33,498 nucleotides of DNA, from NCBI GenBank assembly GCA_021324075.1, contig JAJPJW010000163.1, positions 1 through 33,498 on the forward strand, read 5' to 3'. The position numbers and the translations under genes were made by a program. Every line of letters starts with the position of its first letter. The stretch's first letter is position 1. The notes under the pieces are model-generated. The model had not been told where the DNA came from. It made no database searches and worked only from the letters and a program-made list of their open reading frames with translations. This DNA comes from Pseudomonadota bacterium (GTDB lineage: Bacteria > Oederibacteriota > Muellerivitia > Muellerivitales > Muellerivitaceae). This document shows positions 1-31,465 of the stretch, in pieces.

Positions 1-781
1 CGGCCGAAAGCCCGAAACCCCAGTAATTCTCCCCCCGCCAAATGTTCCAGTTGTGGCGGCAGGCCTTTCCCGGTTTGGAGAAGTTGGAAACTTCGTATTG
101 TTCGAAGCCATTCCGGGCCAGGAAGGACTGGGCCCAGGCGTATTCATCCGCCACCGTATCTTCGGAAGGCAGCGGCAGCCCGTCCGCCACTTGCTTGGCC
201 AGGGGGGTTCCCTCTTCCACTTGCAGGGCGTAGAGGGAAAAATGTTCGGGGTTTAATCCGGCCGCTTTTTCGACGGACTCCTTGAACATCTCCAGGGTCT
301 GGCCGTGCAAGCCGAACATCAGGTCGAGGTTGATGGAGGCAAAGCCGGCCCGGCGGGCATCGGCAAAGGCTTGCTCCACCCTGTCCCATTCGTGGCCCCG
401 TCCCAGCTTCTTGAGGATTTCCTTTTGGACGGCTTGGGCGCCGAAGCTCAGGCGGTTGACCCCGGCGGCCCGGTAGGCCGAAAGCCTTCCCAGGTCCACG
501 GTTTCGGGATTGGCTTCCATGGAAATTTCGATGTCCGCGTCAATGCCGGCTTTCTCCCGGAGCGCGGCGAGGAGCTGTTCCAGTTTTTCCGGAGCCAGCA
601 GCGACGGCGTGCCTCCGCCGAAATAGACGGTTTGAAGGGCACCCTTCAGGGAGGAGTTGCGGATTTCGAGGCAAAGGGCCTCCACATAGGCGGCCATTTT
701 GGATTCCTGTCCCGCGAAGGACGTGAAATCGCAGTAGCTGCAGATGGAAGTGCAGAAAGGGATATGGAGATATGCGTTCAT
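1..781 (-). CDS. hemW: Radical SAM heme chaperone HemW (3' end outside the window)
   Basis: Translating the minus strand from the ATG at 781 gives 260 residues that run off the left edge, so this ORF is absent from the track. It begins MNAYLHIPFC and has the radical-SAM cluster motif CTSICSYCDF (Cys10, 14 and 17), GGGTPS at about 55-60, and EANPE, RLSFGAQ and NLDLMFGLHGQT further on. HemN itself carries CxxxCxxCxC. The form here, with Asp-Phe after the third Cys, fits HemW, the family member thought to bind and deliver heme rather than oxidise coproporphyrinogen. It is the third gene of a lepA-lepB-hemW run, 93 bp after lepB, and a heptamer repeat array fills much of that gap. The Shine-Dalgarno is weak (GGGG about 8 nt before the ATG). 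The C-terminal HemN-type domain is cut off by the window. The family call is secure; HemW rather than HemN is likely. Confidence 0.93.
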   Translation of the reverse strand, partial: MNAYLHIPFCTSICSYCDFTSFAGQESKMAAYVEALCLEIRNSSLKGALQTVYFGGGTPSLLAPEKLEQLLAALREKAGIDADIEISMEANPETVDLGRLSAYRAAGVNRLSFGAQAVQKEILKKLGRGHEWDRVEQAFADARRAGFASINLDLMFGLHGQTLEMFKESVEKAAGLNPEHFSLYALQVEEGTPLAKQVADGLPLPSEDTVADEYAWAQSFLARNGFEQYEVSNFSKPGKACRHNWNIWRGENYWGFGLSA

Positions 782-794
782 TCAAAAACCCCAA

Positions 795-873
795 CTTCAG
801 TTCGCCGTTGGCAGTTCGCAGTAAAAGTCTTGGCTTTCGCTGCGAACCGTGAACTGCGAGCTGCGAACTGCCT
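795..873. repeat. Two inverted arrays of a 7-bp repeat (ACTGCGA family)
   Basis: Positions 839-873 read as five heptamers: GCTGCGA, ACCGTGA, ACTGCGA, GCTGCGA, ACTGCCT. Positions 795-822 contain four heptamers in the opposite orientation; on the minus strand they read ACTGCGA, ACTGCCA, ACGGCGA, ACTGAAG. A 16-bp spacer separates them, so the whole element could fold as a long imperfect hairpin. The right array ends 1 nt from the lepB stop codon. A second copy of the family lies at 20347-20381. Confidence 0.75.
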
Positions 874-874
874 T

Positions 875-1813
875 TTACTTGATCGTCATGAACATCCGGG
901 CCTTCAGGGCCTGGCAGTTGTCCTTGAAGGTTTCCAGGCCTGTGACGCCGACGATGATCCCCGCCAGGACGCAGCACAGCACGATGGTGAAGAGGTAATT
1001 CTTCAATATATCCATCCTGGCCTTGGAGTCCGCCGCTTCCGCGGGGCTGGAGGAGCGTTTCACCACCAGGTCGAAGAGCATCATGAGCGTCGAAACCGCC
1101 GCCACCACCAGGGCCAAGAGGGCCAGGAAGTCGGGGATGCCGACTCCGTGGTAATAAATGAACCAGGCTTTTCCCTTGATCATTTGTTCATCCAGCTGCC
1201 CCCAGTAGCGGGAGTCATAGCTGTTGTCCCGGTTGTCCCCCATCATGAAATAGTGGCCGGGCTGGATCGTGACGGGGCCGAAATTCACCTTTACCGAGTC
1301 CGGGCCCTCCTCCTTGAGGATCAGGTCGGGCGTCCCCATGTGCTTCACATAGGGCTCCACTTGGAGCTGGCCGTTCACGTAAAGGTCGGCTTTCCTTAAT
1401 TCGATCACGTCGCCGGGGGTGCCGATGCAGCGTTTGATGAAATCCTTGGAAGGGTCCTGGGGGAAGACGAAGACCACTACATCGCGCCGTTGGGGCTTGT
1501 GGAAATCCAGGAACCGGGGGGTATGGTTGAGGAAGGAATAGCCGTATTCGTATTTCTTCACCAGGATGTAGTCGCCCACCTGCAGGGTGTCCTCCATCGA
1601 GCCCGAGGGGATGGTGAAGGGCTGGACCCAAACGGCTTTGAGGGAGAGGGCCACCGCCATGGCGATCCAGAAGGAATCGATGGTCTCCACCATGCCGGCG
1701 TTGGCGGGGTTTTTCCGGTAGGCCGGGATGCCCCAGCGCAGCAGGGCTTCCACGAGGGAAAGCACCCCGAAGAGCACCCAGAGGATCGAGTTCAAGTTTT
1801 CAATGAGGTTCAT
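875..1813 (-). CDS. lepB: Signal peptidase I
   Basis: This inner-membrane serine/lysine protease removes signal peptides from exported proteins. In the track numbering (314 aa), the catalytic serine lies in PSGSM (Ser74), the general-base lysine in DFIKRCIG (Lys129), and the C-terminal box is GDNRDNSYDSR at about 195-204. Hydrophobic segments lie near residues 10-28 and 48-65. Two more follow the catalytic core (about 230-250 and 273-293), which is more than the two N-terminal helices of E. coli LepB. The track starts at a GTG (1819) that touches the AAAGGG Shine-Dalgarno. The ATG at 1813 sits 5 nt from that AGGG and is the better start, giving 312 aa. It lies 30 bp after lepA, the classical neighbour. 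The window encodes many exported proteins that would be substrates. Confidence 0.95.
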   Translation of the reverse strand: MNLIENLNSILWVLFGVLSLVEALLRWGIPAYRKNPANAGMVETIDSFWIAMAVALSLKAVWVQPFTIPSGSMEDTLQVGDYILVKKYEYGYSFLNHTPRFLDFHKPQRRDVVVFVFPQDPSKDFIKRCIGTPGDVIELRKADLYVNGQLQVEPYVKHMGTPDLILKEEGPDSVKVNFGPVTIQPGHYFMMGDNRDNSYDSRYWGQLDEQMIKGKAWFIYYHGVGIPDFLALLALVVAAVSTLMMLFDLVVKRSSSPAEAADSKARMDILKNYLFTIVLCCVLAGIIVGVTGLETFKDNCQALKARMFMTIK

Positions 1814-1843
1814 TGTCACCCTTTCTATAAATAAGTGGTTTTC

Positions 1844-3643
1844 TTACTCTTCCACCTTCAATACCGCCATGAAGGCCTCCTGTGGTATTTCGACGCTTCC
1901 GATGTTCTTCATGCGCTTCTTCCCTTCCTTTTGTTTATCCAAAAGCTTGCGTTTGCGGGAAATATCACCGCCGTAGCACTTGGCCAAAACGTCCTTCCGG
2001 CGGGCCCGGACCGTCTCCCGGGCGATGATCTTGCCCCCGATAGCCGCCTGGATGGGCACTTCGAAGAGCTGTTGGGGGATGATTTCCTTCAGTTTTTCCG
2101 CGATGCCCCGGCCCCGGATCTCCGCCTTGTCCCGGTGCACCATGAAGGAAAGGGCGTCCACCGGTTCCCCGTTCAGGAGTATGTCCACCTTCACCACTTC
2201 GCCCACCTTGGTGCCGATGGGCTCGTAATCCAGCGAAGCGTAACCCTTGGTGGCGCTCTTGAGTTTGTCGAAAAAGTCCATGACCACTTCGGCCAAGGGT
2301 ATTTCATAGGTGATGAGCGCCCGGCTGGTATCCAGAAAATGGGTGTCCTTGTGCACGCCCCGCCGCTCCTGGCAAAGGGTCATGACCGCTCCGATATAGT
2401 CGGCGGGCACGATGATCTTGGCGTCGATATAGGGCTCCTCGATCTCCTCGATCTCGGAAGGGTTGGGCAGCTTGGAGGGGTTGTCCACGCTGAAGGTCTC
2501 CCCATTGGTCTTCTTTACCTTATAGACCACGCTGGGGGCGGTGGCGATGAGGTTGAGGTTGTACTCGCGTTCCAGGCGTTCCTGCACGATCTCCATGTGG
2601 AGGAGCCCCAGGAAGCCGCAGCGGAAGCCGAAAGAGAGGGCTAGGGAAGTTTCAGGCTCGTAGGAAAGGGCGGCATCCGAGAGTTTCAGCTTCGCCAGGG
2701 CTTCTTTGAGGTCTTCATAGTCCTCCGAAACCACGGGATAAAGCCCGCAGAACACCATGGGTAGCACGTCCTTGAAACCCGGCAGGGCTGAGGCCGTGGG
2801 GTGGCCGGCGTCGGTGATCGTGTCGCCCACTTTGGCGTCACGCACTTCCTTGACGTTGGCGGCTACATAACCCACTTCCCCCGCTGAAAGGCCCTCGGTC
2901 TTATCCATTTTCGGCTTGAAGACGCCTACTTCCTCCACCTCGAAGACCTTTCCTGTCGACATGAGCTTCATTTTGCTTCCCTTGGCGATGGCGCCGTTCA
3001 GGAGCCGCACGAAAATGATCACACCCCTGTAGATGTCGTACATGGAATCGAAGATGAGGGCTTTGAGGGGTTCCTCCGGTTCGCCCTTCGGCGGGGGGAC
3101 GCGTAAAACCACCGCTTCCAGGATGTCCTCGATGCCGATGCCTTCCTTGGCCGAGGCCAGGATGGCCTCCTCACCCGGGATGGCCAGGGATTCCTCCATT
3201 TGTTTCTTGCATCGCTCCACGTCGGCGGCGGGCAGGTCGATCTTGTTGATCACGGGCACGATGGCCAGTTTCTGGTCGAAGGCCAGGTAGGCGTTGGCCA
3301 GGGTCTGGGCCTCCACCCCCTGGGAAGCATCGATCAGGAGGAGGGCCCCTTCGCAGGCCTTCAGGCTCCGGGAAACCTCGTAGTTGAAGTCCACGTGGCC
3401 CGGGGTGTCGATGAGGTTCATCTCGTACTTCTGGCCGTCCTTGGCCTTGTAGAAAAACCGTACGGCCTTGGCCTTGATGGTGATGCCCCGCTCCCGTTCC
3501 AGGTCCATCTGGTCCATGAGTTGGTCGCGCATCTCCCGGGGGGGGATGGCGCCGGTGAATTCCAGCAGCCGGTCCGCCAGGGTGCTCTTGCCGTGGTCGA
3601 TATGGGCGATGATGCAGAAATTGCGGATGTGGGATAGCGACAA
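1844..3643 (-). CDS. lepA: Elongation factor 4 (LepA), ribosome-associated GTPase
   Basis: LepA is a translational GTPase that acts on ribosomes; back-translocation and a role in initiation or ribosome assembly have both been proposed. The 599 residues match the usual length of about 600. GTPase motifs are in order: G1 AHIDHGKS (13-20), RGIT (52-55), DTPGH (79-83), NKID (133-136) and SAKEGIG. The LepA-specific C-terminal domain is present with [20 protein letters not shown] near the end. The start codon is TTG, supported by an AAAGGA Shine-Dalgarno at 3651-3656 with 7 nt spacing and by the family N-terminus ([18 protein letters not shown]). It heads lepA-lepB-hemW behind the promoter at 3676-3703. 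Confidence 0.98.
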
Positions 3644-4676: not shown

Positions 4677-4740
4677 GGCTTCCTCCCCCGCTTTACATCC
4701 GAAGAATGAACTTCACCCATCGTTTTCAATTTTACCACTA

Positions 4741-5574: not shown

Positions 5575-7999
5575 AAGTCAGCCCCATGTATTGGTTATAC
5601 AGCGTGCCAGTGGTTCCGGGGGGTGTCCCGATATAAGGTACCGCATTTCCCCAGGTCATGTCGTAGTCCCCATAAATACTGGAATTGCGGTTCACCTTGA
5701 AAGTGGTCGAAAACCGGTAACTTTGGTTGCTCCCATTGACATTAAAAATCTGGTATTGCCCCAGGTCCTGGTTATTGAAGGTATAGGAATAGCGGGCCAG
5801 GGTACTTCCCTCGTAACCGGCTTCCGATCCCGAGACACTCTGGGTTCCGAAGGAAGCCGCCCCTTCCCACCAGGGAAAGAGCTCCACCCTTACCCCGCCC
5901 AGGATCCAAGCGCTGGTCAGGGTCCCGATGGCGCTGGTGGTCTGCTCGTAGCGGACGTTCGCCCCGATTTCCAGGTCCCCCGTGCCGATACAGGGCCCCA
6001 GGTTGAACGAAGGCCCGGCATTGATGTAGGTGAAATTCCGTTGGGGAGCGGGAACGGCCGCGGTGGCATCCACCGGCGTGTAACCGGACCCGACGTTGTT
6101 CACCACCATGTTACCACTGATTTCTTGGACGAAGTACAGTGAGGCCGGCAGCTTGAGCGCGTCCTTTTCGAGGGCTTTCACGTCCAAGTCGATCCCAAAA
6201 CCCTCGCGGTTGGGGGTCGCCAAGCCGTAGGGGAAGGTGTTGTCCTGGGTCCGGTCATAAAAACTAAAGATGGCGTTGGCCCGGGGAACGTTGGAAAGGA
6301 AAAATTGGGTTCGCAAGGGGGCGGTCATCAGTTCGGGCCCACCGGGAACGGCTGTGTTGACGAACAACACGCCGCCACCCGTGGAAAGCGTCAGGTCGTC
6401 CTGCCGGGTCTGGGCCAGGGGCGAGTAATAATTAGGGCCCACATCCATGAGGCTAAAGGTGACTTTTGAACGACCGAACCTCACATAGGGCCCGCCTAAC
6501 ACCGCGTAATCGGAGATCGTCTTGTTGGCGTCCTGTTCGTCATCCTGGTAGGTGGCATAGGCCCCTTCAAAACTGCCGCCGATGGAAAAACCACCCCCGA
6601 GCCCTAAGTCCACGGAAGGCTTGAAACTGCCCAACTGGTATTGGTGCGCCCAAGTGTTGGGGTTGAATTGGGAATAGGGGGTCCCGGGTGTGTCCGTGTT
6701 CAAGGGTTCGGTCAGCAAGACCCCGTAAACATCCACGGCCAATTGCAGGGAGACGTCTCCGCCCAGGAACCACCGTTTGGATTTCAGCTCGCTGTCGCCC
6801 CCCAGGATCCAGTCGGTGAAGAAATAAGGCCCAAAGTAGCTGCCCCCGTTGGCAATGTCCTTGAAACCGTTCCGGATCATGTCCACCATCAGGGAAACCT
6901 TGAACTGGTCCAGGACGGCGGAGTCGGGCCAGCCCACATCCGTGCCCAGGCGCACACCCCGGAAAGGCCATTTCGGTTCGTTGTTGAGCAGGGTTTCATA
7001 TTTAGTCTCATCATCATAGCGCTGGTACATTTCGGGGTAGTAACGCAGGTCCAAATTGTTGCGGTTCCAGAGGGTCAGGGGCGTATAAGCCTCGTCGAAA
7101 TCCCCGAAAGTGGCGGAGAACCAGGGCGCGTTGAAATCGATGTGGGCCCGGCGGACGAAAAGGTTATCCAGGGCCAGGTTGGAGGACATGTCGGGCGACC
7201 CGTAGCGGACGGTGGCCTCCCAGCGGACTTGCTTGGACACGATTCCCTCGGGCATGAAGTCGATAAAGCCCGTGGCATAGCGGTTGGCCGGCTGGTTCAA
7301 GGCCACCGCGGTGGTGCTGCCGAAATATTGTTGGGACAACCCATAGGCCCGTCCCAAACCGTGCCAGTCAATGGTGGGATATTCGGTGATGCCCTTGAGG
7401 CTTTTCCAAAGGTCGTATTGTTCTCCCTCGGCCTTGGCCACCTTGTTCTCCACGTCGGCTTTTTGGTCCTGCACCAGTTTCAGCTCGAAGTCGTAGGCTT
7501 CCTTGAGGGAACGGAGGTTCCTCTCCATTTCGGCGATCTTCGCGGGGTTGTTCCAAAGCGCCGTGGAGGCCTCCGAAGGAGCCTCGGCAGGGGCCGGAGC
7601 GGGGGCTACGGGAGCGGGTGCCGGGGCGGTCTCGGGAACTGCGGCAGGAGGCGCCGCCGGGGCGGGACTGGGGGCGGAGGCTCCATCGTTGTCGGCCGGG
7701 GGGGGAGGGGGAATATCCGCGTCGGATTGGGCAAGGATGATTTCCTTATAGTTCTTTTCCGCCTTGAAAATCCTCTGGGCCACTTCAAAACGGGTCAGGG
7801 GGCCCCGGGAGGCGCCGGCAGGCAGGAGGCCCGTGGATTCCAACTCGAATAATTGCCTGTAAGTGGCATCGCCCGACGGGACCACGGCAAAAGGATCGGC
7901 GGCCGCGAATGCGGCAACCGTCCCCAGGAGGAGCGCAAAGCCCAGCATCCAAGCCGGGGCAGGGCGGGCGGCGAAGGTTTTCAGGTTAGAATTTGACAT
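5558..7999 (-). CDS. SLH-type porin, outer-membrane beta-barrel (paralog C)
   Basis: The track gives 816 aa from a TTG at 8008. I prefer the ATG three codons on (7999), giving 813 aa. After a signal peptide ending AAFAAA, a segment of about 40 residues (TYRQLFELESTGLLP...PLTRFEVAQRIFKAE) resembles one S-layer-homology motif. It is followed by a Pro/Ala-rich linker (about 104-150), a charged coiled coil (about 155-205) and about 600 residues of amphipathic strands ending in EIEF. Known SLH porins use the SLH part to hold the wall and the barrel to cross the outer membrane. GDFDEAYTPLTLWN and TWAHQYQLGSF are shared with the 753-aa neighbour. The ATG overlaps the end of that neighbour by 14 nt, and the stop overlaps the following lipoprotein by 17 nt. 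The substrate is unknown. Confidence 0.83.
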   Translation of the reverse strand: MSNSNLKTFAARPAPAWMLGFALLLGTVAAFAAADPFAVVPSGDATYRQLFELESTGLLPAGASRGPLTRFEVAQRIFKAEKNYKEIILAQSDADIPPPPPADNDGASAPSPAPAAPPAAVPETAPAPAPVAPAPAPAEAPSEASTALWNNPAKIAEMERNLRSLKEAYDFELKLVQDQKADVENKVAKAEGEQYDLWKSLKGITEYPTIDWHGLGRAYGLSQQYFGSTTAVALNQPANRYATGFIDFMPEGIVSKQVRWEATVRYGSPDMSSNLALDNLFVRRAHIDFNAPWFSATFGDFDEAYTPLTLWNRNNLDLRYYPEMYQRYDDETKYETLLNNEPKWPFRGVRLGTDVGWPDSAVLDQFKVSLMVDMIRNGFKDIANGGSYFGPYFFTDWILGGDSELKSKRWFLGGDVSLQLAVDVYGVLLTEPLNTDTPGTPYSQFNPNTWAHQYQLGSFKPSVDLGLGGGFSIGGSFEGAYATYQDDEQDANKTISDYAVLGGPYVRFGRSKVTFSLMDVGPNYYSPLAQTRQDDLTLSTGGGVLFVNTAVPGGPELMTAPLRTQFFLSNVPRANAIFSFYDRTQDNTFPYGLATPNREGFGIDLDVKALEKDALKLPASLYFVQEISGNMVVNNVGSGYTPVDATAAVPAPQRNFTYINAGPSFNLGPCIGTGDLEIGANVRYEQTTSAIGTLTSAWILGGVRVELFPWWEGAASFGTQSVSGSEAGYEGSTLARYSYTFNNQDLGQYQIFNVNGSNQSYRFSTTFKVNRNSSIYGDYDMTWGNAVPYIGTPPGTTGTLYNQYMGLTYEIEF

Positions 8000-10247
8000 A
8001 ATATCCAAATCTCCAAACCTCGTCGTAATGGGTATAAGCGGGGAAATCGCTCCAGTTGTACTGGGTCAGGAAGTAATCCGCCCGGAAATTGGCCATGTCG
8101 TTCAGGGGAAGTTTGAGGCCGAGGGCGAAGGTCTGCCGGGTGAGGTTCAGCGGCTCGTAGGAATATTGTCCCAAGGTGGACGTGTCCAACATGAAGGAAT
8201 ATTCACCGTAGGTGGGCGGATTGCCCTGCCCCAGCACATATTCGCTGCCGGTGGACTGGGTTTGCTCAAAGGCCGCGGACCAGACCACCGTGTTCAGGAA
8301 ATGGGCCGGGATGTTGAAATCACAGGCTGCGATCAAGGTATCCACGGTGAAGGGGGCCGCTCCCAGGCCCAAGTCCGTTTCCTGGTGCTTGAGGTCGAAT
8401 TGAATGTCATAAGTGCGTCCGGGCAGGTCAAGGGCCTTGGCGAAATCGACCGTCAGGGCGCCTTCGTAACCCGTAAAACTCCGGGCGGCGGCGGTGTTGG
8501 TGTTGCTGTCGACGGCCGCCACTCCCGTTCCGTCCGGCTTGACGACGAAATCCGGCTGGATTTCCTGGATTGACTCGTAGGAAAACTGGGGTTTGAACCA
8601 GCCCTTCTCCCCGATCTCGCCTGAAAAACCGAAGACCACACCTTGGCGGTCAGGCGTGGAATCCCCATAGGGAAGGGCGTTTTCGGCCAGACGGTCATAG
8701 GGGGCGAAGGAAGGCCGGGTGACGCTCTGAAAGGGCGACCCGTTGAGGTAACCGGGCAGGTTGTCGTCCAGGCCGTTCATATTGGTGCTCAAGTAAAGGG
8801 AGGAGCCCGTGCCGGGGGTGTACCGGTTGGTCTGGGCCCCGGGTGAGTAGAAATAGGGTCCGATATCGAGGTATTTTCCGGTGAAATGGATCCCTTCAAT
8901 ATTCAACGATCCATTGGCTAAGAGGGCCCAATCGGTGAAGACCCTCAAGGGGTTCATCTGGTCGTCATTGTATTGGCTGCCCGCATTTTCCACCGAGGCG
9001 GTCACGTTCACCTTGTCGGCAAAGGGCAAAGTGACCCGGCTGGCCACGCTGCCGATCTCATATTGATGGGCCCAACTGTTCGAATAATAGGAAAGGTAAG
9101 GCACGTTGGCGCTGCTGGGGTCCTCCCACAAAAGCAGGCCCGTCCCGGTGACTTCCAGGTTGTCGCCCAGGAGGCTCAGCGAACCCTGGGTTCCGCCGAA
9201 GTAGCTTCCAAAGGTGAAATTGGTGGCGGTGTTCATGGGCCCGGCCATGGCCTGCAGCTTGGCGTTGCTCAAGAAGGCATCCTTCCCGAAAGCCACGGTC
9301 GTGGCCGCCTGGAAACCCCGCAAATGCTCATCCGTGCCGTGGTCCATATAGACCCATTCCTCCACGTCCTTGCGCGTGCGGTTGAAAGAAGTTGGTTCGA
9401 TGAAGGTATAAACGGGAACCTCGTAGTTCCAAAGGGTCAGGGGGGTATAGCTCTTGAAGAAGTCCCCGGCGTTCAGGGTGGCGACATCATTCACGTTCGT
9501 CAGCTCCAGCCACCGCAACTGGAAATGCTGCAGGATCGGGTCCTGGTAGTACATCCCGATGGAGCGTAGGGCCCTGATGCGGGCGTCGAATAAAAGGAAG
9601 GGCACGGGAATGCTGCGAAGGTCCATCTCCATGAATATGGCGGCGTTGTAATCCATGGGGAGATAGCCGGGGAAATTCCCGAACCCGCGGTAGTTGGACA
9701 TGTATCCCCTGGAAAACCCGCCTATATCCATGCCTGTGCGCTTCAGGTAGGCCTGCTGCAGGGCGGCGAAAACCTCGTCGCGGTCCTTGACGTCCTGGAT
9801 GCGCGCCTCCAGCTTGTCCACGTCGATCCCCATGGCCGACAGCTCCCCGCGGAATTCCTCCACCAGGTCCGTCAGGCTTTTGGAGGCCTGGGGAGCGGAG
9901 GCCGCCGTACCGGGAAGGTCCGGAGCCCCGGGAAGGGCGGGCGTGCCGGGAGGAGGCAGTTCGGGTGGAGGCAGGTTCACCCCGCCGCCCGGAAGGGGCG
10001 GGGGAAGCTCGGCTTGGGCGTAAAAACGCTGGCCCGCTTGTTCGGTCAATTGGGCCACTTCCAGGTTGGTCATCTGGGCAATGGGTTTCTCCGGGGCGGC
10101 CACCAGTCCCGAGGAGACCAGGTCCGCCAGCTCCTGGTTGACCCAGGCGTCCCGGTCGGTCGAAACCAAACGGCCATGGCCGGCGTAGGCCGGCAAGGCT
10201 CCCACGAGGAGCAAGGCCACGATCCATTGTTGGCTGCGAAGTTTCAT
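7986..10247 (-). CDS. SLH-type porin, outer-membrane beta-barrel (paralog B)
   Basis: This 753-aa protein starts at ATG 10247 behind AAGGA. The signal peptide ends PAYA-G (about residue 22). An SLH-like stretch follows (DAWVNQELADLVSSGLV...MTNLEVAQLTEQA), then a Pro/Gly-rich linker (about 80-118), a coiled coil (about 122-170) and a long barrel region ending FGYYVKF with a terminal Phe, the usual outer-membrane sorting signature. It shares SYTPLTLWN, SWAHQYEIGS, FYSPGAQT and NALPYGDSTPDRQG with the 813-aa protein, so the two are clear paralogs. It lies 13 bp after the 871-aa porin gene, and its own stop lies inside the start of the next gene. General diffusion or glycan-specific uptake are both possible. 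Confidence 0.83.
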   Translation of the reverse strand: MKLRSQQWIVALLLVGALPAYAGHGRLVSTDRDAWVNQELADLVSSGLVAAPEKPIAQMTNLEVAQLTEQAGQRFYAQAELPPPLPGGGVNLPPPELPPPGTPALPGAPDLPGTAASAPQASKSLTDLVEEFRGELSAMGIDVDKLEARIQDVKDRDEVFAALQQAYLKRTGMDIGGFSRGYMSNYRGFGNFPGYLPMDYNAAIFMEMDLRSIPVPFLLFDARIRALRSIGMYYQDPILQHFQLRWLELTNVNDVATLNAGDFFKSYTPLTLWNYEVPVYTFIEPTSFNRTRKDVEEWVYMDHGTDEHLRGFQAATTVAFGKDAFLSNAKLQAMAGPMNTATNFTFGSYFGGTQGSLSLLGDNLEVTGTGLLLWEDPSSANVPYLSYYSNSWAHQYEIGSVASRVTLPFADKVNVTASVENAGSQYNDDQMNPLRVFTDWALLANGSLNIEGIHFTGKYLDIGPYFYSPGAQTNRYTPGTGSSLYLSTNMNGLDDNLPGYLNGSPFQSVTRPSFAPYDRLAENALPYGDSTPDRQGVVFGFSGEIGEKGWFKPQFSYESIQEIQPDFVVKPDGTGVAAVDSNTNTAAARSFTGYEGALTVDFAKALDLPGRTYDIQFDLKHQETDLGLGAAPFTVDTLIAACDFNIPAHFLNTVVWSAAFEQTQSTGSEYVLGQGNPPTYGEYSFMLDTSTLGQYSYEPLNLTRQTFALGLKLPLNDMANFRADYFLTQYNWSDFPAYTHYDEVWRFGYYVKF

Positions 10248-10260
10248 TTTGTCCTTAGCC

Positions 10261-12876
10261 TTAGAAAAGGAACCACATACGGCTGTAATACTGGTCGCCC
10301 GAGTAGTCGTTTTTCGGCACGTCGGCGTCGGTGAAGTCGATGTGCTTGTAGCGGAATTCCATCTTGCCCCCGCACCAGGGGATGTCCCAGGCCAGGCCCA
10401 AACCGTAGGCGTTGGTTTGGTAGTCCACGTTGGGGTAGGTATAGGCCGACTTCCAGGTTTCCAAGCCGATGTCCCCGCTCAAATCCAGGTTCTTGACGAC
10501 ATTGACCATGACGGCCCAGTCGAAAACCTGCTGTTCGAAAAGGTTCGGGATATTCTGCAGGTTGACCGTCTGTCCCGGACTGGTGGTGACGCTGGCCAGG
10601 GCGGGATTGGAGGAAACACCCGATACTTGGTTGTCCGCCATGAAAAAGGAGCCGTCCAGCGGGGTGGAAAGGCCGATCCATTGGTTCAGCTTTAACTTCG
10701 CTGTCAGGGCGATGTAATTATAGGTTTTCAAATTGTCCAGATTGACATAGACGTTATGGCCGACCATGCCGGTTACGGGTGCGTTGGCCGCTGTATAGGT
10801 AGTCGGCATGCCATTGGCTCCCAGGATCGGCACGATCAGCGGAAGCCGTTCCGAGGTCAACCGGAATTGGTATCGGGGGTCGTAAAGGGTGGTGTCCCCA
10901 TCGTTGCGCGCGGTTTCGATATTGTTGGCATAGGCTTGGCGCAGGGGATAATCGGGGCTGCTGTAGCCCCCCCAAAGGTTGAGGCCCCAAAGGCCTTCGT
11001 CATCGGGATAATAGAAGGAAATTTCGTTGAAGGGCTCGATGGTGTAATAACCCGTGTTGCTGTTCCCCACCGGCCCGGCCTGCTCCGCGGTGAATTCCGT
11101 CTTTTGGGCCAAGTCGAAATTGATGATGAAACTGTCGAGGAAACTCGGCCAATCCTTCATGAAGTCCTGCTTGCGGCCGTCCCAGCCCAGGTTCACCCTC
11201 CAGCCGTAGCGGTCGCTCACCAGGTTGTCCACCTCGCCGATGGCTCCATAGGCGTCGTTGAAGTCGTTGGGCGACTTGGTGGACAGGTCGCTCACCCCGT
11301 ACTGCTCGAAATGCACGCCCGCCATCAGGACCTTGCTCTGGAAATTGGCGTAATTGTCGCTGATCGCGAAACCGTAAACCGTGAAGGGGTAGAAACTGAG
11401 GGCGGCCTGTCCTGCCCCTGCTTCGATCGGTTGGGGATTGGGGTCCAGGGCCCCCGTATAAAGATTGGTGATGAACTCGCCGGTATAGAGGTGGGAAAAC
11501 CCGCCCTCGATGTCGAAGAAGACGGGCTTGAGGTTGAGGTTGATGTCGGCGGCGTAGTCCTGCATATCCAGTTGGGGGACCTGGTTGAACCCGAACTCAT
11601 CGTTGACCCATTGGGCGGAGAGGGAGGTCCTGATCGTCTGGCTCCAGGGCATGTCGATCTTTGCCGCTTCTTCCCAGCGCTGGGTCTGGGTGGGGCTGGT
11701 GCCCATGCGCCCGACGAGAACGTGCACCCTTGTATCGCCCAGGCCCGGCAGGTCGTGGCCCACGGCATACATGCCGTCGAAAACCCGGTCGCTGGTGGAC
11801 TGGACGTTCGCGGAGACGGTGGAAACGAAGCCCACGCTGTTCATGTAGTCGTCCCAGTTCTTGGCGTCCTTGTCGGTGGAGAAGGCCTTGATGTCGAAGG
11901 GGTCCTCGAAGCGTTTCAGGGAATAGGGGGCCACGCCGCGGGTGAAATCCCCCAGGGTGGTGTCGGACTGGTAAGCTTCCACCGCGAAGGTGGTTTCCCA
12001 TTTGCCCAGGTCCCCGTAAACGTCCAAGGTCAGGCTGGGGGATCCCACGTAAATCGAGGCGGGGGAGGCCAGGGCGCCGGTGGAGCCGCCCGGGGAATCG
12101 GAGAAGTTGGAATAAGGGATAAAGGCTCCGAAACCGATGGAATAAACCCCCGCACCTCCGATATCGCCCCACATCCCTAACCAGATGGTCTGCTCGAGCT
12201 TGCTCACATTGTTGACCAGCGGACCCGAACCCGAAACGGGCCCGGAAACGTTGAATTGCTCGAAACGCGTATCGGTATTGGTGTTCAGGTTGGGGTCTCC
12301 GACGTCCTTCTTGGCCTTGTTCTTGACCGCGACGACCTCGTCCTCGATTTTGCGCAGGTTGTCCAGTTCCTTTTGCTCGTCCGTAATCCGCTGGTCGTAA
12401 AGGCTCAGGCGGGACTTGAGCATGGCGTCTTCTTCCTTGAGTTCTTTCAGCAGTTCGTTGATTTCATTCAGGGTGGCGGCATTGGCCGGAGGCAGGAAGG
12501 GCGTGGGCGCGGGGGCGGCGGCCGTCGGCAGGGCCGGGGGCAGCGAGATTTCGTTGGTTACCGGGGCCGCCACCGGAAGGGGGATGGGCGTGGCGGTGGG
12601 AAGGGGGCGGTAGAGTTCGGGGGCCGTCAGGTGGGCCTTGGCTTTCTCCGTATAAAACGCCAGCTCCAGGCGGGTGACATACTTCCCTTCATCCAAAACC
12701 TGCTTGTCCTGGGGTTCCAAATAACCTTCATCCCCCAGTCTCTTCACGCGCTGGTAAAGGGGCGAACTGGAGTCCAACTCTTCATAAGGATTGGCCGAAA
12801 CCGGGGGCGCCCCGGACCCTAGGAAAAGGGCCGCCAAGGCGGCGGCGACCAGGAAGATTTTGGATCGGAAGCTCAA
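10261..12876 (-). CDS. SLH-type porin, outer-membrane beta-barrel (paralog A)
   Basis: At 871 aa this is the largest of the three. The start is TTG with GAGG 6 nt upstream, and the signal peptide ends PPVSA-N (about 28). An SLH-like segment (SPLYQRVKRLGDEGYLEPQ...YVTRLELAFYTEKA) precedes a Pro/Ala-rich linker (88-130) and a strongly charged coiled coil (133-190, NEINELLKELKEEDAMLK). The barrel region runs to the end and closes with YSRMWFLF. The loop motif that reads YTPLTLWN in the paralogs is diverged here (GDFTRGVAPYSLKRF), so this copy is the most distant. It lies 74 bp after the first lipoprotein gene of the operon. Coiled coil plus SLH suggests a barrel held away from the wall by a rod, as in OmpM-like proteins. 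Confidence 0.82.
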   Translation of the reverse strand: MSFRSKIFLVAAALAALFLGSGAPPVSANPYEELDSSSPLYQRVKRLGDEGYLEPQDKQVLDEGKYVTRLELAFYTEKAKAHLTAPELYRPLPTATPIPLPVAAPVTNEISLPPALPTAAAPAPTPFLPPANAATLNEINELLKELKEEDAMLKSRLSLYDQRITDEQKELDNLRKIEDEVVAVKNKAKKDVGDPNLNTNTDTRFEQFNVSGPVSGSGPLVNNVSKLEQTIWLGMWGDIGGAGVYSIGFGAFIPYSNFSDSPGGSTGALASPASIYVGSPSLTLDVYGDLGKWETTFAVEAYQSDTTLGDFTRGVAPYSLKRFEDPFDIKAFSTDKDAKNWDDYMNSVGFVSTVSANVQSTSDRVFDGMYAVGHDLPGLGDTRVHVLVGRMGTSPTQTQRWEEAAKIDMPWSQTIRTSLSAQWVNDEFGFNQVPQLDMQDYAADINLNLKPVFFDIEGGFSHLYTGEFITNLYTGALDPNPQPIEAGAGQAALSFYPFTVYGFAISDNYANFQSKVLMAGVHFEQYGVSDLSTKSPNDFNDAYGAIGEVDNLVSDRYGWRVNLGWDGRKQDFMKDWPSFLDSFIINFDLAQKTEFTAEQAGPVGNSNTGYYTIEPFNEISFYYPDDEGLWGLNLWGGYSSPDYPLRQAYANNIETARNDGDTTLYDPRYQFRLTSERLPLIVPILGANGMPTTYTAANAPVTGMVGHNVYVNLDNLKTYNYIALTAKLKLNQWIGLSTPLDGSFFMADNQVSGVSSNPALASVTTSPGQTVNLQNIPNLFEQQVFDWAVMVNVVKNLDLSGDIGLETWKSAYTYPNVDYQTNAYGLGLAWDIPWCGGKMEFRYKHIDFTDADVPKNDYSGDQYYSRMWFLF

Positions 12877-13931: not shown

Positions 13932-16900
13932 TTATTCTTGGTCGTCGTTTTCTTTCGGGTCCGAGCCGTTGCCCTTGTCGTTTTCCAAGTCCCTCACCGA
14001 GGCGCCCGAACTCTTCTTCATGTAGGCGAAATCGAAAACCCTCCAGGACTGGCCGGGTTTTTCCGCCACGACGGCGGCCATGAACCGGTTGTCGCGGTCC
14101 GGCTGGTTTTCCTTGGGGATGTTCACATAGAGGCTCTTCACGCGCAGGGTGTCCCCCGCGGGCAGGTCGAAGGGCCCTACCGTGGCCAGGTCGGCGTAAT
14201 AATCTTTGGAGGCGTCGATTTGGTGCAGCACGACCCCCTTCAGGTCCTGGGGCGTGGGATTGCGGATTTCAACCTGCAGGGGGACCGAGACTCCCCCCGG
14301 CACCTTCTTGGGAGCCGTCAAGGTGACCTCCAGGGGCGACAAACCCTCGGTTTGCCGGAGCATGGTGAAGGCCTTGCCGCCCGCCACCGTCCATTCCATG
14401 GCGCTGTAGGGGCCCTTCACCCCGTAAACGATGCGGTAGAGGTCGTGCCAGAACATGCCGATTTGGGCGTTCACCGGGAACCATTGGTGCAGGATGTCCA
14501 CTTCGCGGTTGTAAAGCTCCTGGGGCCCGGGCGGATCGACGGATTTCTGGACCCAGTTGAAGTCCACCATTTCGCCGGGCGCGAACATGCCATTGCCCCG
14601 CGCCAGGTACTCGGGCCATTGGGTTTTCATCGAAGCCAGGGTGCTCCGGTCGCTCTGGTAAAGCATGATTTGGTTGTAGCCGATGCCCGCGTCGATGAGC
14701 ATGGCCGGGTCCTGCCCGTGTTCATGGCCCATCTTCCAGCCCAGGGTGAAGGTGAAGACGGGTTTGGAGATCTTGGCCTCCTCCAGGATGCCCCTGACGA
14801 TGGTGGCCACCTTGTGGGCCCGCCACCAGTCGAACAAGGCCACGACCGGGGAATCTTTCTTGCGGCCCGTCTCGACCGTCTTGGCCAGCCAGTGGATGCG
14901 CTCCTCCTTGGAAAGGGACCAGAAGTTGTCCGGTCCGGGCACGTTCATGTCGTTCACGAACTCGTCGACCATTTCGTAGCCCGCATCCCCCGTGCGGATG
15001 TAATCCAGCCCCACCATGTCCACGTTGGGGTCCTGGTCCATTTCCTTGAGGAAACCGATGACGTCCTGCCGGCGCTTGGGGTCCTCCACCGAAATAAACC
15101 GGTCCTGGACCACTTCGTCGCTGTCCGGGTCGTATCCCAATGCGAACTGGTAGGGAACCTGGTTCCACGCGTCGCCCATGACCTTAAAGGTGGTCATATA
15201 GGCCCCAAACTTGAGGCCGACGGCGTGGGCGGCTTTGGCGTATTTGCGGCCCACTTCCATATCGCCGCGGTTGAAGGGAAAATCCCGCGGGCTGAAATGG
15301 TCCCAGGCGGAGGTCTGGGCCATGAGGAAGCAATAGGTGTCGGCGCCCATAAACTTGGCCCAGTCCAGGGCGTTGGCGGCCCTTAAGGAATCGCTGCCGT
15401 CGAGGGCCGGCACCGCCCCGCCGATCAGCCGCTTGCCGCCTTCCATGGTCAGGGCCGCATAGCCGGCGGGCATGCCGTTGGGCCTCAGGGGCGGGATCGT
15501 GAAGGCGGACTCGAAGTCCTTCGCGGTTTCCCAGGTGGGGGAAGTCACCACCACTTCGGCCACATAGGTGCCCACGGGGGGGTTATAGGGGATGGGCCAA
15601 TTGCCGATGAACTTCCCGTGCGGGACGTCCTTCTTCAGGCTCAGCTTGGTCCTTCCGTCCACCAGTGTGACGGGTTTTCCGTCCTGGAACACCTCCACGG
15701 TGGCGTGCATGTCGGGGAAGGAGCCTATTTCCTCGTGGTTGATGGTCACCTCGAAGGGCACCAGCTCGTACCTCAGGAAATTGCGGGTGGGCATGACGGC
15801 GATCACATCCGGGATCATCTGCGCGACGGTGGGCGACATGGCCCCGAATTTTTTGGATTCGGGGGAAAGGGTGGCCTTGGCGATCAAGACCCCGCAGGCC
15901 AGGAAGGCGGCGATAAGGGCATACCGCAGGCCCTTCTGGCCGTGGAACCAATGGAGGAGCGGCTGGAAATTGAAACGGGGGCGCGGGAAGGTCCAGGGCC
16001 GGTGCTGGGGCCTGAGGACCGGGGTTTCGGCCGGCGGGGCCGCCGGCGGCAGGGGTTCCAGGAAGGCCCGGTGGACTTCCTCATGGGAGGGCTCGGCAAT
16101 GGCCTGCTCCTGGACGGGGGTCTCAAGGGGGGCTTTCGGCGGTTCGGCCACCGGGGTGGAAAGCACCGGGGGAAGGATAACCGGGGTTTCGGGTACGGAT
16201 TCCAAAACCGGCCGGATCTCTTCGGCCTTTTCTTCCACTTGGGCGGGGCCTTCGATTTCCCGTATCTCTTCCTGGGACAAAACCGACGCCGGTGGGATGG
16301 ATTGGGAAAGGGTGGTTTCCGAATAGGACACCGTAGGGGCTTCCACGGGCGGTTCCACACTCGGGATGGCCAGCCCTTCCTCAATCTCTTCGATGGAAGC
16401 TTCCATGGGATCGGCGGTTTCCGCCTCGGTGGCCCCGGTTTGGGACGCGAGGACGGGGTTTACGGGATTTTCAGTGGCGGCCGGTTCGGGCCGGACCCTT
16501 TCCACCTGCTCTTGGGTAAGGGAGGCGGTTTCCTCCATCGAGGGCCAGACGGGCACCTCCGGTTCCATGGCCCGAGGTGCGGCCGGGGCGGAATGGATCT
16601 GCGAAAGAAGCCTCTCCTCCAGGCTGCCGCTCTGGATTTTCGGGCGCCCTTTAAAGATGGAGCCGGCCCCCTTTCCCAGGGATTGCAGGCTCCGGCCCAT
16701 ACCGCCGAAAACGGCCCGGGCCACCGAACCGGCCAGGGCTGAGGCCGCGGAGGCTTGGCCCGCACCGGCCTTCAAAAGGTCCGCGGTCTTTTCCTTCAGC
16801 GCATTGAAGTTGGCGGCGATGTTGAGCGAGGCGGGTTCCACGGGCTTGGGCAGGCGGAAAGGTTCGAGCTCGGCGCGGCCTTCCTGGTTCATCACCTCGG

Positions 16901-18347
16901 GCGGCAGGGGCGTGGTGCGGGTGAGGCGTACCACCGTCTCCACGTGGTAGGTCTGGGGGAACATGTCCAGGGGCTGGGCCCAATCCACCGCGTAACCGTG
17001 TTTGGCCAGGAGCGCCAGGTCCCGCGCCAGGGTGGCGGGGTCGCAGGAAACATAGACGAGGCGTTCGGGGTAGAAAGCCGCCAGCCGCGCCAGAACCTCG
17101 GGCAGCACACCCTTGCGCGGCGGGTCCATAATGGCCGCGTCGATCTGGGCAAGGCCCTTCTCCTTGAGGCCCAGCAGGATCTGGGGGACGTCCCCTTCCA
17201 GGTAGTCGATGTTGGCACGGCGGTTGAGGTCGGCATTGAAGCGCGCGTCGTCCACCGCCGCCCCCACTTCCTCCACACCCACGACGTAGTCGGCATTTTG
17301 GGATACGGCCATGGCCAGCGTACCGATGCCGCTGTAGAGGTCCAGCACCGTTCCCCATTGCTTCTTGTGCTTGGGCTCGCCCAGGGCCTCCCGCACCAGC
17401 GCGTGCAGGATATCGGCCTGGGCCGTGTTGACCTGGAGGAAGGATTTGAGGGAGACCTTCAGCCTCAGCCCGTCGATCTCCTCGTAATAATGGTCGCGGC
17501 CCGCCAGCAGTTTGGTCGTGGGCCCGAAGACGATGTTCGTGCGCGAGGGGTTGATGTTTTGCAGGACGCCCGCCAGGCCCGGCACCTCGGCCATGAGTTC
17601 CCGGGCGATGCGGGGCAAAATTTCCTCGAAGCTTTCGGGCAGCAGGGTTGGCTTTTGCACCCGTTCCTCGGGCGTTTCGGTACGGGTCACGAAGGCCAGC
17701 AGGGCCTCGCCGGTCTTCAGTCCCCTCCGCACGGTGAGGTGCCTTAAGAAACCCTCGTGTTTCTTTTCCTGGTAGGGCGTCAGGCCCGACCTTTCGATCT
17801 TTTGGAGGACTTTTTGGAGCAGGTCGTTGATCTCGTCCGCCTGGATGGGGCAGCTGTGGTAGGGCACCAGGTGGTGGGAGCGGGGTTCGTAGATGCCGGT
17901 GACGAAATGGCCGTCCCTCATGGAAAGCACCGGCATGGCCTTGTTGCGATAGGCATAGGCCGCGGGCGAAGGCAGGCAGGGTTGCACGGTGACGTTGTCG
18001 AGCTTTCCGATGCGCTTCAGGGAATCCACCACGAACTGGCGCTTGGTCTGGAGTTGGCGCGGATAGCTCAAGTGCTGCCACTGGCAGCCGCCGCATTCCT
18101 CGAAGATGCCGCAGTTGGGCGTGACACGGTCGGGTGAGGGCCGCAGGATGGAGAGGATCTCGCCGGTGGCGTAATGGTCCTTGACCTGGGTCACCTTGAG
18201 GCGCACCCGCTCGCCGGGAAGCCCGCCGGGAACGAAAAGGGCGAAGTCCTGGAACCGGCCCACGGAATCGCCTCCGAAGGCCAGTGAAGTGATTTCAATT
18301 TCGATTTGGTCCCCGTACTTGACGGGTTTGATGATTTTGGTGCTCAT
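13932..18347 (-). CDS. rlmD: 23S rRNA (uracil-5-)-methyltransferase joined to a membrane-anchored glycoside-hydrolase-like protein
   Basis: One open frame of 1,471 aa from ATG 18347; the track start at 18458 adds 37 unlikely residues. Residues 1-478 are a complete RumA/RlmD enzyme. It has a TRAM domain, Fe-S cysteines CGIFEECGGC (79, 85, 88) with YHSC (166), FLQVNTAQAD, SAM motif LDLYSGIGT, DPPRKG, nucleophile VSCDP (Cys435) and HVETVVRL (Glu470). It would methylate U to m5U in 23S rRNA. Then come about 100 residues with an Ala/Gly-rich helix, a Pro/Glu-rich linker (about 590-780) and one membrane helix (about 806-823). Outside the membrane follow an Ig-like domain, a TIM-barrel-like domain with VGLDYIRTGD (about 1112) resembling hypothetical glycosyl hydrolases of the DUF4015/GHL type, and a C-terminal beta domain. 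A cytoplasmic rRNA enzyme fused to a periplasmic hydrolase is odd. An overlapping two-gene reading with a split at 16892 is equally credible (see findings). Confidence 0.85.
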   Translation of the reverse strand: MSTKIIKPVKYGDQIEIEITSLAFGGDSVGRFQDFALFVPGGLPGERVRLKVTQVKDHYATGEILSILRPSPDRVTPNCGIFEECGGCQWQHLSYPRQLQTKRQFVVDSLKRIGKLDNVTVQPCLPSPAAYAYRNKAMPVLSMRDGHFVTGIYEPRSHHLVPYHSCPIQADEINDLLQKVLQKIERSGLTPYQEKKHEGFLRHLTVRRGLKTGEALLAFVTRTETPEERVQKPTLLPESFEEILPRIARELMAEVPGLAGVLQNINPSRTNIVFGPTTKLLAGRDHYYEEIDGLRLKVSLKSFLQVNTAQADILHALVREALGEPKHKKQWGTVLDLYSGIGTLAMAVSQNADYVVGVEEVGAAVDDARFNADLNRRANIDYLEGDVPQILLGLKEKGLAQIDAAIMDPPRKGVLPEVLARLAAFYPERLVYVSCDPATLARDLALLAKHGYAVDWAQPLDMFPQTYHVETVVRLTRTTPLPPEVMNQEGRAELEPFRLPKPVEPASLNIAANFNALKEKTADLLKAGAGQASAASALAGSVARAVFGGMGRSLQSLGKGAGSIFKGRPKIQSGSLEERLLSQIHSAPAAPRAMEPEVPVWPSMEETASLTQEQVERVRPEPAATENPVNPVLASQTGATEAETADPMEASIEEIEEGLAIPSVEPPVEAPTVSYSETTLSQSIPPASVLSQEEIREIEGPAQVEEKAEEIRPVLESVPETPVILPPVLSTPVAEPPKAPLETPVQEQAIAEPSHEEVHRAFLEPLPPAAPPAETPVLRPQHRPWTFPRPRFNFQPLLHWFHGQKGLRYALIAAFLACGVLIAKATLSPESKKFGAMSPTVAQMIPDVIAVMPTRNFLRYELVPFEVTINHEEIGSFPDMHATVEVFQDGKPVTLVDGRTKLSLKKDVPHGKFIGNWPIPYNPPVGTYVAEVVVTSPTWETAKDFESAFTIPPLRPNGMPAGYAALTMEGGKRLIGGAVPALDGSDSLRAANALDWAKFMGADTYCFLMAQTSAWDHFSPRDFPFNRGDMEVGRKYAKAAHAVGLKFGAYMTTFKVMGDAWNQVPYQFALGYDPDSDEVVQDRFISVEDPKRRQDVIGFLKEMDQDPNVDMVGLDYIRTGDAGYEMVDEFVNDMNVPGPDNFWSLSKEERIHWLAKTVETGRKKDSPVVALFDWWRAHKVATIVRGILEEAKISKPVFTFTLGWKMGHEHGQDPAMLIDAGIGYNQIMLYQSDRSTLASMKTQWPEYLARGNGMFAPGEMVDFNWVQKSVDPPGPQELYNREVDILHQWFPVNAQIGMFWHDLYRIVYGVKGPYSAMEWTVAGGKAFTMLRQTEGLSPLEVTLTAPKKVPGGVSVPLQVEIRNPTPQDLKGVVLHQIDASKDYYADLATVGPFDLPAGDTLRVKSLYVNIPKENQPDRDNRFMAAVVAEKPGQSWRVFDFAYMKKSSGASVRDLENDKGNGSDPKENDDQE

Positions 18348-22720: not shown

Positions 22721-25700
22721 TTAGAACCCGAAGTTGACCCCCGCGTCGAAGCTCTGGGAATCATAGTTGGTGATGCCCAGCTTGCCCTCGTACTGCAGGT
22801 AGCCGTTCAGCCCCGCGGCAAAGCGGGCGTTGACCCCCGCCCCCACCAGGATCCCGTCCGTACCCGTCGAGGGGCCGCTCACCGTGAAGTTGCTGGTGGC
22901 CGTGCCCAGGCTGGCGTTCAGGCTGTCCGCGTTGCCCTGGTACACGTGTTCCCAGGCCGCGCTCACATTGGGTGAAAGGATGAATCCCCCTCCCATGTCG
23001 AGGCTCTTGCTGGCCTTAGCGCCCAGGTCGGTCAGGAAGGAGCCTTCCCCCTGGCTGGGGATGCTGGCCGGAGCGAGCGAACCCGTTTCCGTGAAACCAT
23101 TCATCTGCACATAGGTGTATTGGCCCGAGGCAAAGGGCCCCACTTTGGCCTGGTCCACGGTGAAGTCGTAGCCGCCGGACAACTGGCCGCTGTACTCAAC
23201 ACCCTGGGTGCTGCCGTCGGCGGTGCCGCCCAAGGCTGCCCGCTTGGTGCTGTAGTTGTTGAGCCCGCCGGAAACCAGGGCTTCCAGGTGCACCGCGTCG
23301 CGCTGCATCCCACCGTAAAAACCCACCTGCCCGCCGGTCACATCGACCGTGGTGCCGTCGGGCGTGGTGGCCCCGGACTGGGTGAAGGACAGCATCAAGC
23401 CGGCCATCATGCCGTGGCCGAAGCGGCGGTCCATCCCCGCCGTCATGCCGCCGGTGGAAAAGTTGTAGCCCGTGGCGTTGGAACTGCCGGTCAGGCTCCC
23501 GAAGTTGCCCGCCCCGCTCACGAAAACGCCCCAATCATCCGCGCCCGCGGGGGCGGCGGAAGGCTGGTTGGAGGCCGCCGGAGCCGCGTTGTCCGTCTTG
23601 ACGGCCTGGGCGATCATCCGTTCTTCCTCGGCCGAAAGGATGCCCGCGAACATGGGCTCCTGGCCGCTGTTATAGTGCAGTGCGCTGCCGCCCAAACCGA
23701 AGCCCGACCCGCCCATGAGGGCTTCCAGGCGCTGGCCCACCAATTGGGCCTGGGCCTGGGCGTTCGAGAAGCCGATCTGGTAGATGGGCACCAGGCCGCC
23801 CGGGGCGATCAAGTTGTAGTCCCCCGCCAATTGGGAAGCCGTCTGGGTCCCCAGGAAGGCGAAGAGGCCGTAGTACTTGGGGTCCCCCCAAAGGCCGTTC
23901 AAGGCGCTCCCCACCTGGCTTCCGTTGCCCGTGGTGGCCACCGAGGCGAAGTCCGAAGGCACGGCCTCCAACAGCACGTCCGTGGCCTGATAAACCGGCA
24001 TCAGGTTGATGCCCGTGATGGCCGAGGAATAGGTGCCGAAGGAACCCGAAACGCCCGTGGCGTTGACCACCTGGAAGGAGCTTCCGACAGTCGGGGTGAA
24101 GCCGCTGTAGGAAACCACCTGCAGTTTCCCGCCCAAAACCGCCGTACCGCCCACGTTCAACAAATCCCATTGGCCGGCGGTGGTTCCGCCCAGGCCCAGT
24201 TGCAGGGTGCCCGCCGAACCCTGGGCGTAATTGCCTGTTACGCCGATGGTCATAGGGCCCGCGCTGGTCCTCAGGGTACCGCCATAGACCGTCACACCCC
24301 CCGTGCCCAAAGAACCCGTATTGCCCACCAAAAGCGTGCCGCTATAAAGCTTGGTCCCGCCCGAATAGGCAAAGGCGGTAGGAAGGTAGAGGGTGCCATT
24401 ACCCGCTGAATCGGCCACCGACAGGGCGCCCGTACCGCTCAAGTTTCCGTCCCAGGTCACGGCAAAACCGTTCACATCCACTGTGCCACCGGGCGCCAAA
24501 AGGGTCGCCACCTGGACGGTGTCCAGGTTTGCGCCAGCCTGCAGGGCGCCGCCGTTGAAAAGGAGCGTATCGCTGGAACCCAGGCTGGAATCACCTTGGA
24601 TGTCCACCACGCCGCCCGAAAGGGTGGTGGCGCCGCTGTAGCTGTTGGAAGCCCCCAGCGTCAGCATGCCCGGACCGGTTTTTTCCAGGCCCGAATTGCT
24701 TGAAACGGAACCGCTGAAATTGCCGCCACCTACTTGAAGGGTCGAGGTGTTCCCCGATTCATAGAAGTAGCCGGCCCCATTCAACGAGCCGATGGAAACG
24801 GCCGCCGAACCCGAAACCAGGCCCGAACCGCCGTAAACACCCAGGTAGGAATTGGAATCCGCCAGGTTGAGGCTGCCGATGGTGACATAAGCGTTGCCGC
24901 CGTTGCCCCGGATGGTCCCGCTGCCCCCACTGCCGGCATAGACGTCGATATAAGAGCTGCTGGTCAGGCCGGCCGAGGCCATGTTCAGAATGGCATTGCC
25001 GCCGTTGCCGCCGTTGCCCAGGACGTCGCCCGTACCGGCGACGCCGTTGAGGGCGTTGGAGTTCAGGGCTCCATTCACTGATGAGCCGTTTCCTTGGCCC
25101 GCAGCCCCGCCTGAGCCGCCTGAACCGCCGTATTCGTAGAAGTAGGAGCCTGACATGGTCACGGCGCCAAAGGCCATATTGGCATTGCCGCCGTTGCCGC
25201 CTTTACCGCCGGTATTGTCGTTCCCGCCGTTGCCTCCCAGGGCCGTGACGGACGAGGAGGTGTAGTCGTAATAAGGTACGTCAGCGTAAGATTGGACCGA
25301 AGCGTATTGCCCCGAACCCGCTTCCCCGCCCGAACCGCCGGAGCCGGCCTCAAAATAAGCGTAGGCGCCGTTGAGGAAGGTGACCGGACCGGCGTTCAAG
25401 TCCAAATCCCCGCCGTTGCCTCCCAACCCGCCGGTGTTGTTGTTTCCGCCGTTGCCGCCTTGGGCCGTGACGAAAGTGCAGGCCCCGCCCGCATAAGCCC
25501 CGCCACCCGTGCCTGCGTCGCCGCCCGCGCCGCCTGAACCGCCGTAGAAATAGCCGTAGGTGGAATGGTTGAAGGAGAGGGCGCCGAGGGCTAGCGTCAC
25601 GGCGCTTCCCGTACCGCCGATCCCACCCGTGTTTCCGTCGCCGCCGTTGCCGCCCGTCAAGGTGACCGTTTGTCCGTAATAACCGAGCTGGGCCGTGCCG

Positions 25701-31369: not shown

Positions 31370-31465
31370 CACAATCCTCCTGGCGGATAGGTGAATCAAG
31401 GAGTCATCAAGTTTGGATTTAGCGTTTAGATGTGGGAAGCCGGCTGCGGCTCAAAACCCCGGCAA

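Follow-up and report, generated by a model that had tools for sequence, protein, structure and literature searches.

In viral polyproteins, internal signal peptides are cut by host signal peptidase; an internal hydrophobic stretch is followed by a small-x-small cut site, and the products end up in different compartments. Gene fusions normally join proteins that act in one place. The gene described here resembles the viral polyproteins in having an internal hydrophobic stretch, then a small-x-small motif, and products predicted for different compartments, but it is a bacterial chromosomal gene that joins a housekeeping rRNA enzyme to a putatively exported protein, and its cleavage is predicted from sequence. 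The N-terminal half corresponds to RlmD/RumA (TIGR00479; PDB 1UWV and 2BH2), the C5-methyltransferase of U1939 in 23S rRNA, with which it has the TRAM domain, the central Fe-S domain and the SAM domain in common, along with the SCxP cysteine, the DPPR aspartate, the glutamate of the C-terminal HxE and the four cluster cysteines. The SCxP cysteine of RlmD is the nucleophile (PMC7226160), and the C-terminal glutamate is the proposed general base (PMC5614603). Unlike RlmD/RumA, the fused protein has a C-terminal extension of ~1000 residues with a putative export signal and a glycosidase-like protein. This second half, referred to here as the hydrolase, has free secreted homologues in other families of candidate division FCPU426, a little-studied bacterial phylum, and in other phyla. 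They have the same Ig domain, TIM barrel and beta-sandwich, many invariant acidic and aromatic residues in common with the fusion and a similar lepA neighbourhood; unlike the fusion, they lack RlmD, their open frames measure 498-787 aa, and those inspected start with a signal peptide. The hydrolase also has significant structural matches to TIM-barrel glycosidases that carry flanking beta domains (GH66 dextranase 5AXG, GH2 enzymes, beta-amylase 1B90 and PgaB 4F9J), at ~8-12% identity and whole-chain TM-scores of 0.2-0.4, and it has no Pfam family.

The window, by which we mean the whole stretch of 33,498 nucleotides analysed, comes from genome G000, and the records of its near relatives place these in candidate division FCPU426. 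Its features are collected in Table 1. The start Met of the fused gene matches the start position of the relatives in the alignment, and AAAGG stands directly 5' of this ATG. The RlmD half matched TIGR00479 with 405.6 bits (cut-off, 183.55). All checkable fused proteins of the order have the nucleophile Cys (SCxP), the DPPR Asp, the QVN Gln and the C-terminal Glu base, and their set of four Fe-S cluster Cys is complete. By its motifs the RlmD half is intact, and from these we infer that it is active, including in methylation of U1939 of 23S rRNA. Since no second RlmD above the TIGR00479 cut-off was found in the fused genomes, the fusion protein would have to supply whatever RlmD activity they have. 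For the hydrolase, an AlphaFold2 model of 13995-15836 had a mean pLDDT of 89.2 and a pTM of 0.89, and Foldseek matched it to glycosidases with E-values down to 3e-12. GH66 dextranase, GH2 enzymes, beta-amylase and PgaB were among the best matches; GH66 dextranase was the best fold match, at 9-10% identity and with a low whole-chain TM-score. The model predicts a glycosidase-like protein with the TIM-barrel glycosidase fold; D278 of the model (window 15003-15005) is one of its conserved acidic residues. Placement in a described family was rejected, because the hydrolase of the window has no Pfam family (scattered weak matches among 28 members), a profile search of PDB sequences with it gave nothing significant, and only its fold is glycosidase-like.

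Table 1. Features of the fused gene and of its conserved downstream neighbours in the window
Feature	Position	Strand	Basis
Fused gene rlmD::hydrolase, 1471 aa from ATG 18347	13932..18347	-	single open frame
RlmD half: TRAM, Fe-S central domain, SAM methyltransferase domain	16923..18347	-	TIGR00479
GGGG run, suspected indel site	16907..16910	+	frame kept on either side in relatives
GAGGTGATGAAC element: private ATG and +1-frame TGATGA	16887..16898	-	absent from 8 relatives; no function inferred
Linker, 331 codons	15930..16922	-	alignment, dN/dS, hydropathy
LRYALIAAFLACGVLI: hydrophobic core of putative internal signal, basic residues before	15882..15929	-	hydropathy, alignment
AKA: candidate signal peptidase I site; predicted cut between 15873 and 15872	15873..15881	-	A-x-A in 9/9
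Exported part (predicted)	13935..15872	-	AlphaFold2 model, Foldseek matches to glycosidases
Ig-like domain of hydrolase	~15444-15824	-	AlphaFold2 model
TIM barrel of hydrolase	~14349-15377	-	AlphaFold2 model
C-terminal beta-sandwich of hydrolase	~14010-14330	-	AlphaFold2 model
lepA (EF4), ancestral downstream neighbour of free hydrolase	1844..3643	-	Pfam LepA_C; synteny
lepB (signal peptidase I, Peptidase_S26)	875..1819	-	Pfam; synteny
Radical SAM gene, last of conserved block, cut by window end	2..781	-	Pfam; synteny

The first-pass annotation of the window had offered two readings, a cytoplasm-to-periplasm fusion or a pair of overlapping, coupled genes that a single extra base had joined, and had proposed a comparison of the junction in related genomes. 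This comparison revealed a fused open frame in several independent assemblies. The fusion was present in all nine members of the order (G000 and eight relatives), as a complete single ORF in seven and cut by a contig end in two, and the join was open in all nine, including both truncated ORFs. Relatives with a complete contig had fused ORFs of 1243-1521 aa, and the ORFs cut by contig ends measured 1451 aa (G002) and 1153 aa (G004). The fused genomes G001, G002, G006, G007 and G008 stem from several separate MAG assembly projects. In the protein alignment of the closer relatives, T-R-x-x-P-L-P on the N-terminal side of the suspected spot and L-E-P-F-R-L-P-K-P on its C-terminal side lie in one frame, and the frame is identical on both sides of the C-run in the eight relatives. 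Across the junction, pairwise dN/dS was 0.11-0.21 for two pairs, with saturated synonymous sites in a third; in the linker it was 0.30-0.41. Changes in junction and linker were in excess at third codon positions, as expected of translated sequence. With an open fused frame in 9/9, the frame kept in eight relatives and dN/dS well below 1 in both junction and linker, the fusion reading held, and we are almost certain that the rlmD-hydrolase gene fusion is real. The fusion is ancient.

No RlmD-hydrolase fusion was found outside the phylum, where the hydrolase-matching open frames of 16 other genomes (498-787 aa) are too short for an RlmD, and none was found described in open-licence papers. Long frames in G011 and G012 were considered as other RlmD fusions and discarded, because they consist of an upstream high-GC open frame with RlmD at the C-terminal end. 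A free RlmD in G024 (L106) carries a basic, low-complexity C-terminal tail rich in Gly, Lys, Arg and Ser, and long RlmD open frames (639-681 aa) are seen in further genomes of the same family.

A hydrolase homologue is carried by 32 of 45 genomes of the phylum and is found in other phyla as well; except in the fused lineage, it is a free protein. In most phylum genomes with a readable flank, the free hydrolase lies directly upstream of lepA, and in several of them lepB and the radical SAM gene follow lepA. The fused order has kept the lepA-lepB-radical SAM block downstream of the fusion, with about six conserved genes in between where the contig reaches that far. The conserved gene order was seen at loci L078, L080, L082, L083, L085, L087 and L093 and in window 2-3643. 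The retained block suggests that rlmD arrived upstream of a hydrolase gene which had not left its ancestral position. The interval between fusion and lepA (window 3786-12876) contains four to six genes without a Pfam match that are conserved across the order: three related small proteins, two related proteins of ~750-820 aa and one of 871 aa. Two tandem lepB-like genes are found in the hydrolase-lepA block of L078 (G009:C39:14042-15377). Elsewhere in the window, an open frame of 2892 aa (22721-31399, minus strand) has no Pfam match, and its similarity to relatives in G003 and G007 is limited to its ends.

How could the hydrolase leave the cell? In the free hydrolases of all 18 phylum genomes inspected, the Ig domain follows a hydrophobic signal-like segment, usually at a distance of 12-20 residues. 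In the fused proteins, the linker is ~90 to >300 residues long; in G000 it has a short conserved stretch (LEPFRLPKP) and a hydrophobic or amphipathic segment and is then rich in Pro, Glu and Ala. In all nine order members its end consists of basic residues, an uncharged run of 14-17 residues and the A-x-A, and this segment stands where the free homologues have their signal peptide. It has the anatomy of a Sec/signal peptidase I signal (positive n-region, hydrophobic core, A-x-A c-region) in 9/9, but it is not N-terminal and lies ~800 residues inside the chain. The motif is AKA in five members and AAA, ATA, AMA or ARA in the others, so that only the middle residue varies, and of the 96 ungapped linker columns seven are invariant, two of which are the Ala pair of A-x-A. 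The nine sequences are related, and 9/9 does not stand for nine independent events; conservation of A-x-A is good but not conclusive evidence for the putative signal peptidase I site. The membrane segment, which the first-pass annotation had not recognised as such, looks like the signal peptide of the free secreted protein, passed on to the fusion, now internal and possibly cleavable. We regard export of the hydrolase from this internal signal as highly probable, and cleavage by signal peptidase I as the most likely next step after export, if with rather modest assurance.

Of the other explanations, a permanent signal-anchor survives best. The protein would then remain uncut, with a single membrane span, RlmD inside and the hydrolase tethered outside, and the fusion would still be real. 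A hydrophobic stretch with a positive N-side in 10/10 fused proteins, including the more distant G013 discussed below, is consistent with such an anchor, as is the lack of a clean A-x-A in G013. However, the uncharged core is just ~14 residues long in most fused proteins of the order and 17 at most, and both this length and an invariant A-x-A with a variable middle residue fit a cleaved signal better; we consider the anchor unlikely. A cleaved internal signal is moderately preferred because the A-x-A pattern fits a signal peptidase I site. A weaker hydrophobic segment is found ~55 residues past RlmD in most members; it is below threshold in G000 and absent from G008 and G013. Were it to cross the membrane, the hydrolase could end up inside, but the export of the free hydrolase homologues argues against this. 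A signal peptide ~800 cytoplasmic residues into a chain is unusual and counts against our best explanation, and no bacterial precedent for an internal signal peptidase I site of this kind was found in open-licence papers.

Free products might also arise if translation started within the linker or shifted frame at the junction, in which case RlmD and hydrolase would largely be made apart. In-frame ATG, GTG and TTG codons with purine-rich upstream sequence are indeed scattered over the linker, but no linker start is conserved in position across the relatives and the +1 stop at the junction is private to G000, which makes this route improbable.

The sequence elements behind the two-gene reading were all found where they had been described. 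HVETVVRL, the RlmD motif, ends at 16923; from there the frame is open up to the stop at 13932-13934. The minus strand at 16898-16887 reads GAGGTGATGAAC, with an in-frame ATG at 16892-16890 and TGA TGA one frame over (+1) at 16894-16889, and the plus-strand GGGG corresponds to CCCC on the minus strand. From this ATG a second gene would encode 986 aa, in agreement with the first-pass annotation (about 985 aa). TGATGA occurs a single time in the fused ORF, 28 nt past the RlmD end. As evidence of a frameshift, TGATGA and GGGG are weak: the coincidence is only mild, because the ORF contains 42 +1-frame stops and 59 C/G runs of at least four. Within 400 nt of the RlmD end, TGATGA was found in none of the eight relatives, and at the codon of the internal ATG these have CTG, CTG, TTA, CTC, CCG, TCC, TTG and GGG, but never ATG. 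By this comparison, TGATGA is a coincidence private to the G000 genome, and an overlapping, translationally coupled gene pair was rejected because the stop/start overlap is not conserved (0/8). Two such genes (rlmD ending at TGATGA, the second starting at ATG 16892), merged by a one-base sequencing or assembly error, are hardly credible, since the stop and ATG adjoining GGGG just past RlmD are outweighed by 8/8 relatives whose fusions share the frame and lack both that stop and that ATG, by residues on either side of the C-run that align in one frame, and by a second start that would fall inside the linker.

G013, from another family of the phylum, has an ORF of 1148 aa with an RlmD-hydrolase fusion in the order TRAM, four cluster Cys, methyltransferase-like region, hydrophobic segment, hydrolase. 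Its RlmD half (L094:2109-3527, G013:C161) has kept the TRAM domain and the four Fe-S Cys but is without the catalytic Cys, Asp, Gln and Glu and the SAM motif. A model of the methyltransferase half was of low confidence (pLDDT 53.9) and still matched RlmCD/RumA; it carries no weight in the argument here. No other RlmD was found in this genome, which is 89% complete. The possible cut site is A-F-G (LAFG), not A-x-A. G013 groups with the fused proteins in the hydrolase tree (90/91, or 96/93 without two long branches) and in the RlmD tree (98/99, or 94/98), with very long branches of its own and a position within the RlmD tree that departs from taxonomy. The trees favour a single origin of the G013 and order fusions but do not prove it. 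Judged from the residues lost, the RlmD half of G013 would be catalytically dead; it is still encoded in frame, which may be due to the lack of any other start and export signal for the hydrolase.

Overall, we consider it probable that an ancient fusion combines a cytoplasmic RlmD with a hydrolase that is exported by an internal signal and cut off by signal peptidase I. The RlmD half would stay in the cytoplasm as the cell's only RlmD, and the hydrolase half would be exported via a signal that was once the N-terminal signal peptide of the free protein. Signal peptidase I would most likely cut past the invariant A-x-A and release the hydrolase outside, as a product of ~70 kDa that would begin with TLSPESK; RlmD would stay behind on a flexible linker, its tail embedded in the membrane. 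The result would be a two-compartment polyprotein. Only tentatively do we extend this to the full picture of a bacterial two-compartment polyprotein, in which an rRNA methyltransferase and a secreted hydrolase are split by signal peptidase I at a conserved internal signal and the methyltransferase of a sister lineage has decayed to a non-catalytic leader. Joining the two may serve membrane tethering of RlmD or co-production, or may be a simple lock-in following a chance fusion; G013 fits lock-in.

An rRNA-maturation enzyme and a putatively exported enzyme are found on one chain across an order. Annotation calls for caution here, as pipelines may label the ORF RlmD and overlook the secreted half. 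If the internal signal is cut, bacteria can run a polyprotein that is split by signal peptidase; if it is uncut, a ribosome-maturation enzyme is placed on the membrane. G013 suggests how, when the partner has come to rely on it, a fused enzyme can survive as nothing more than a leader.
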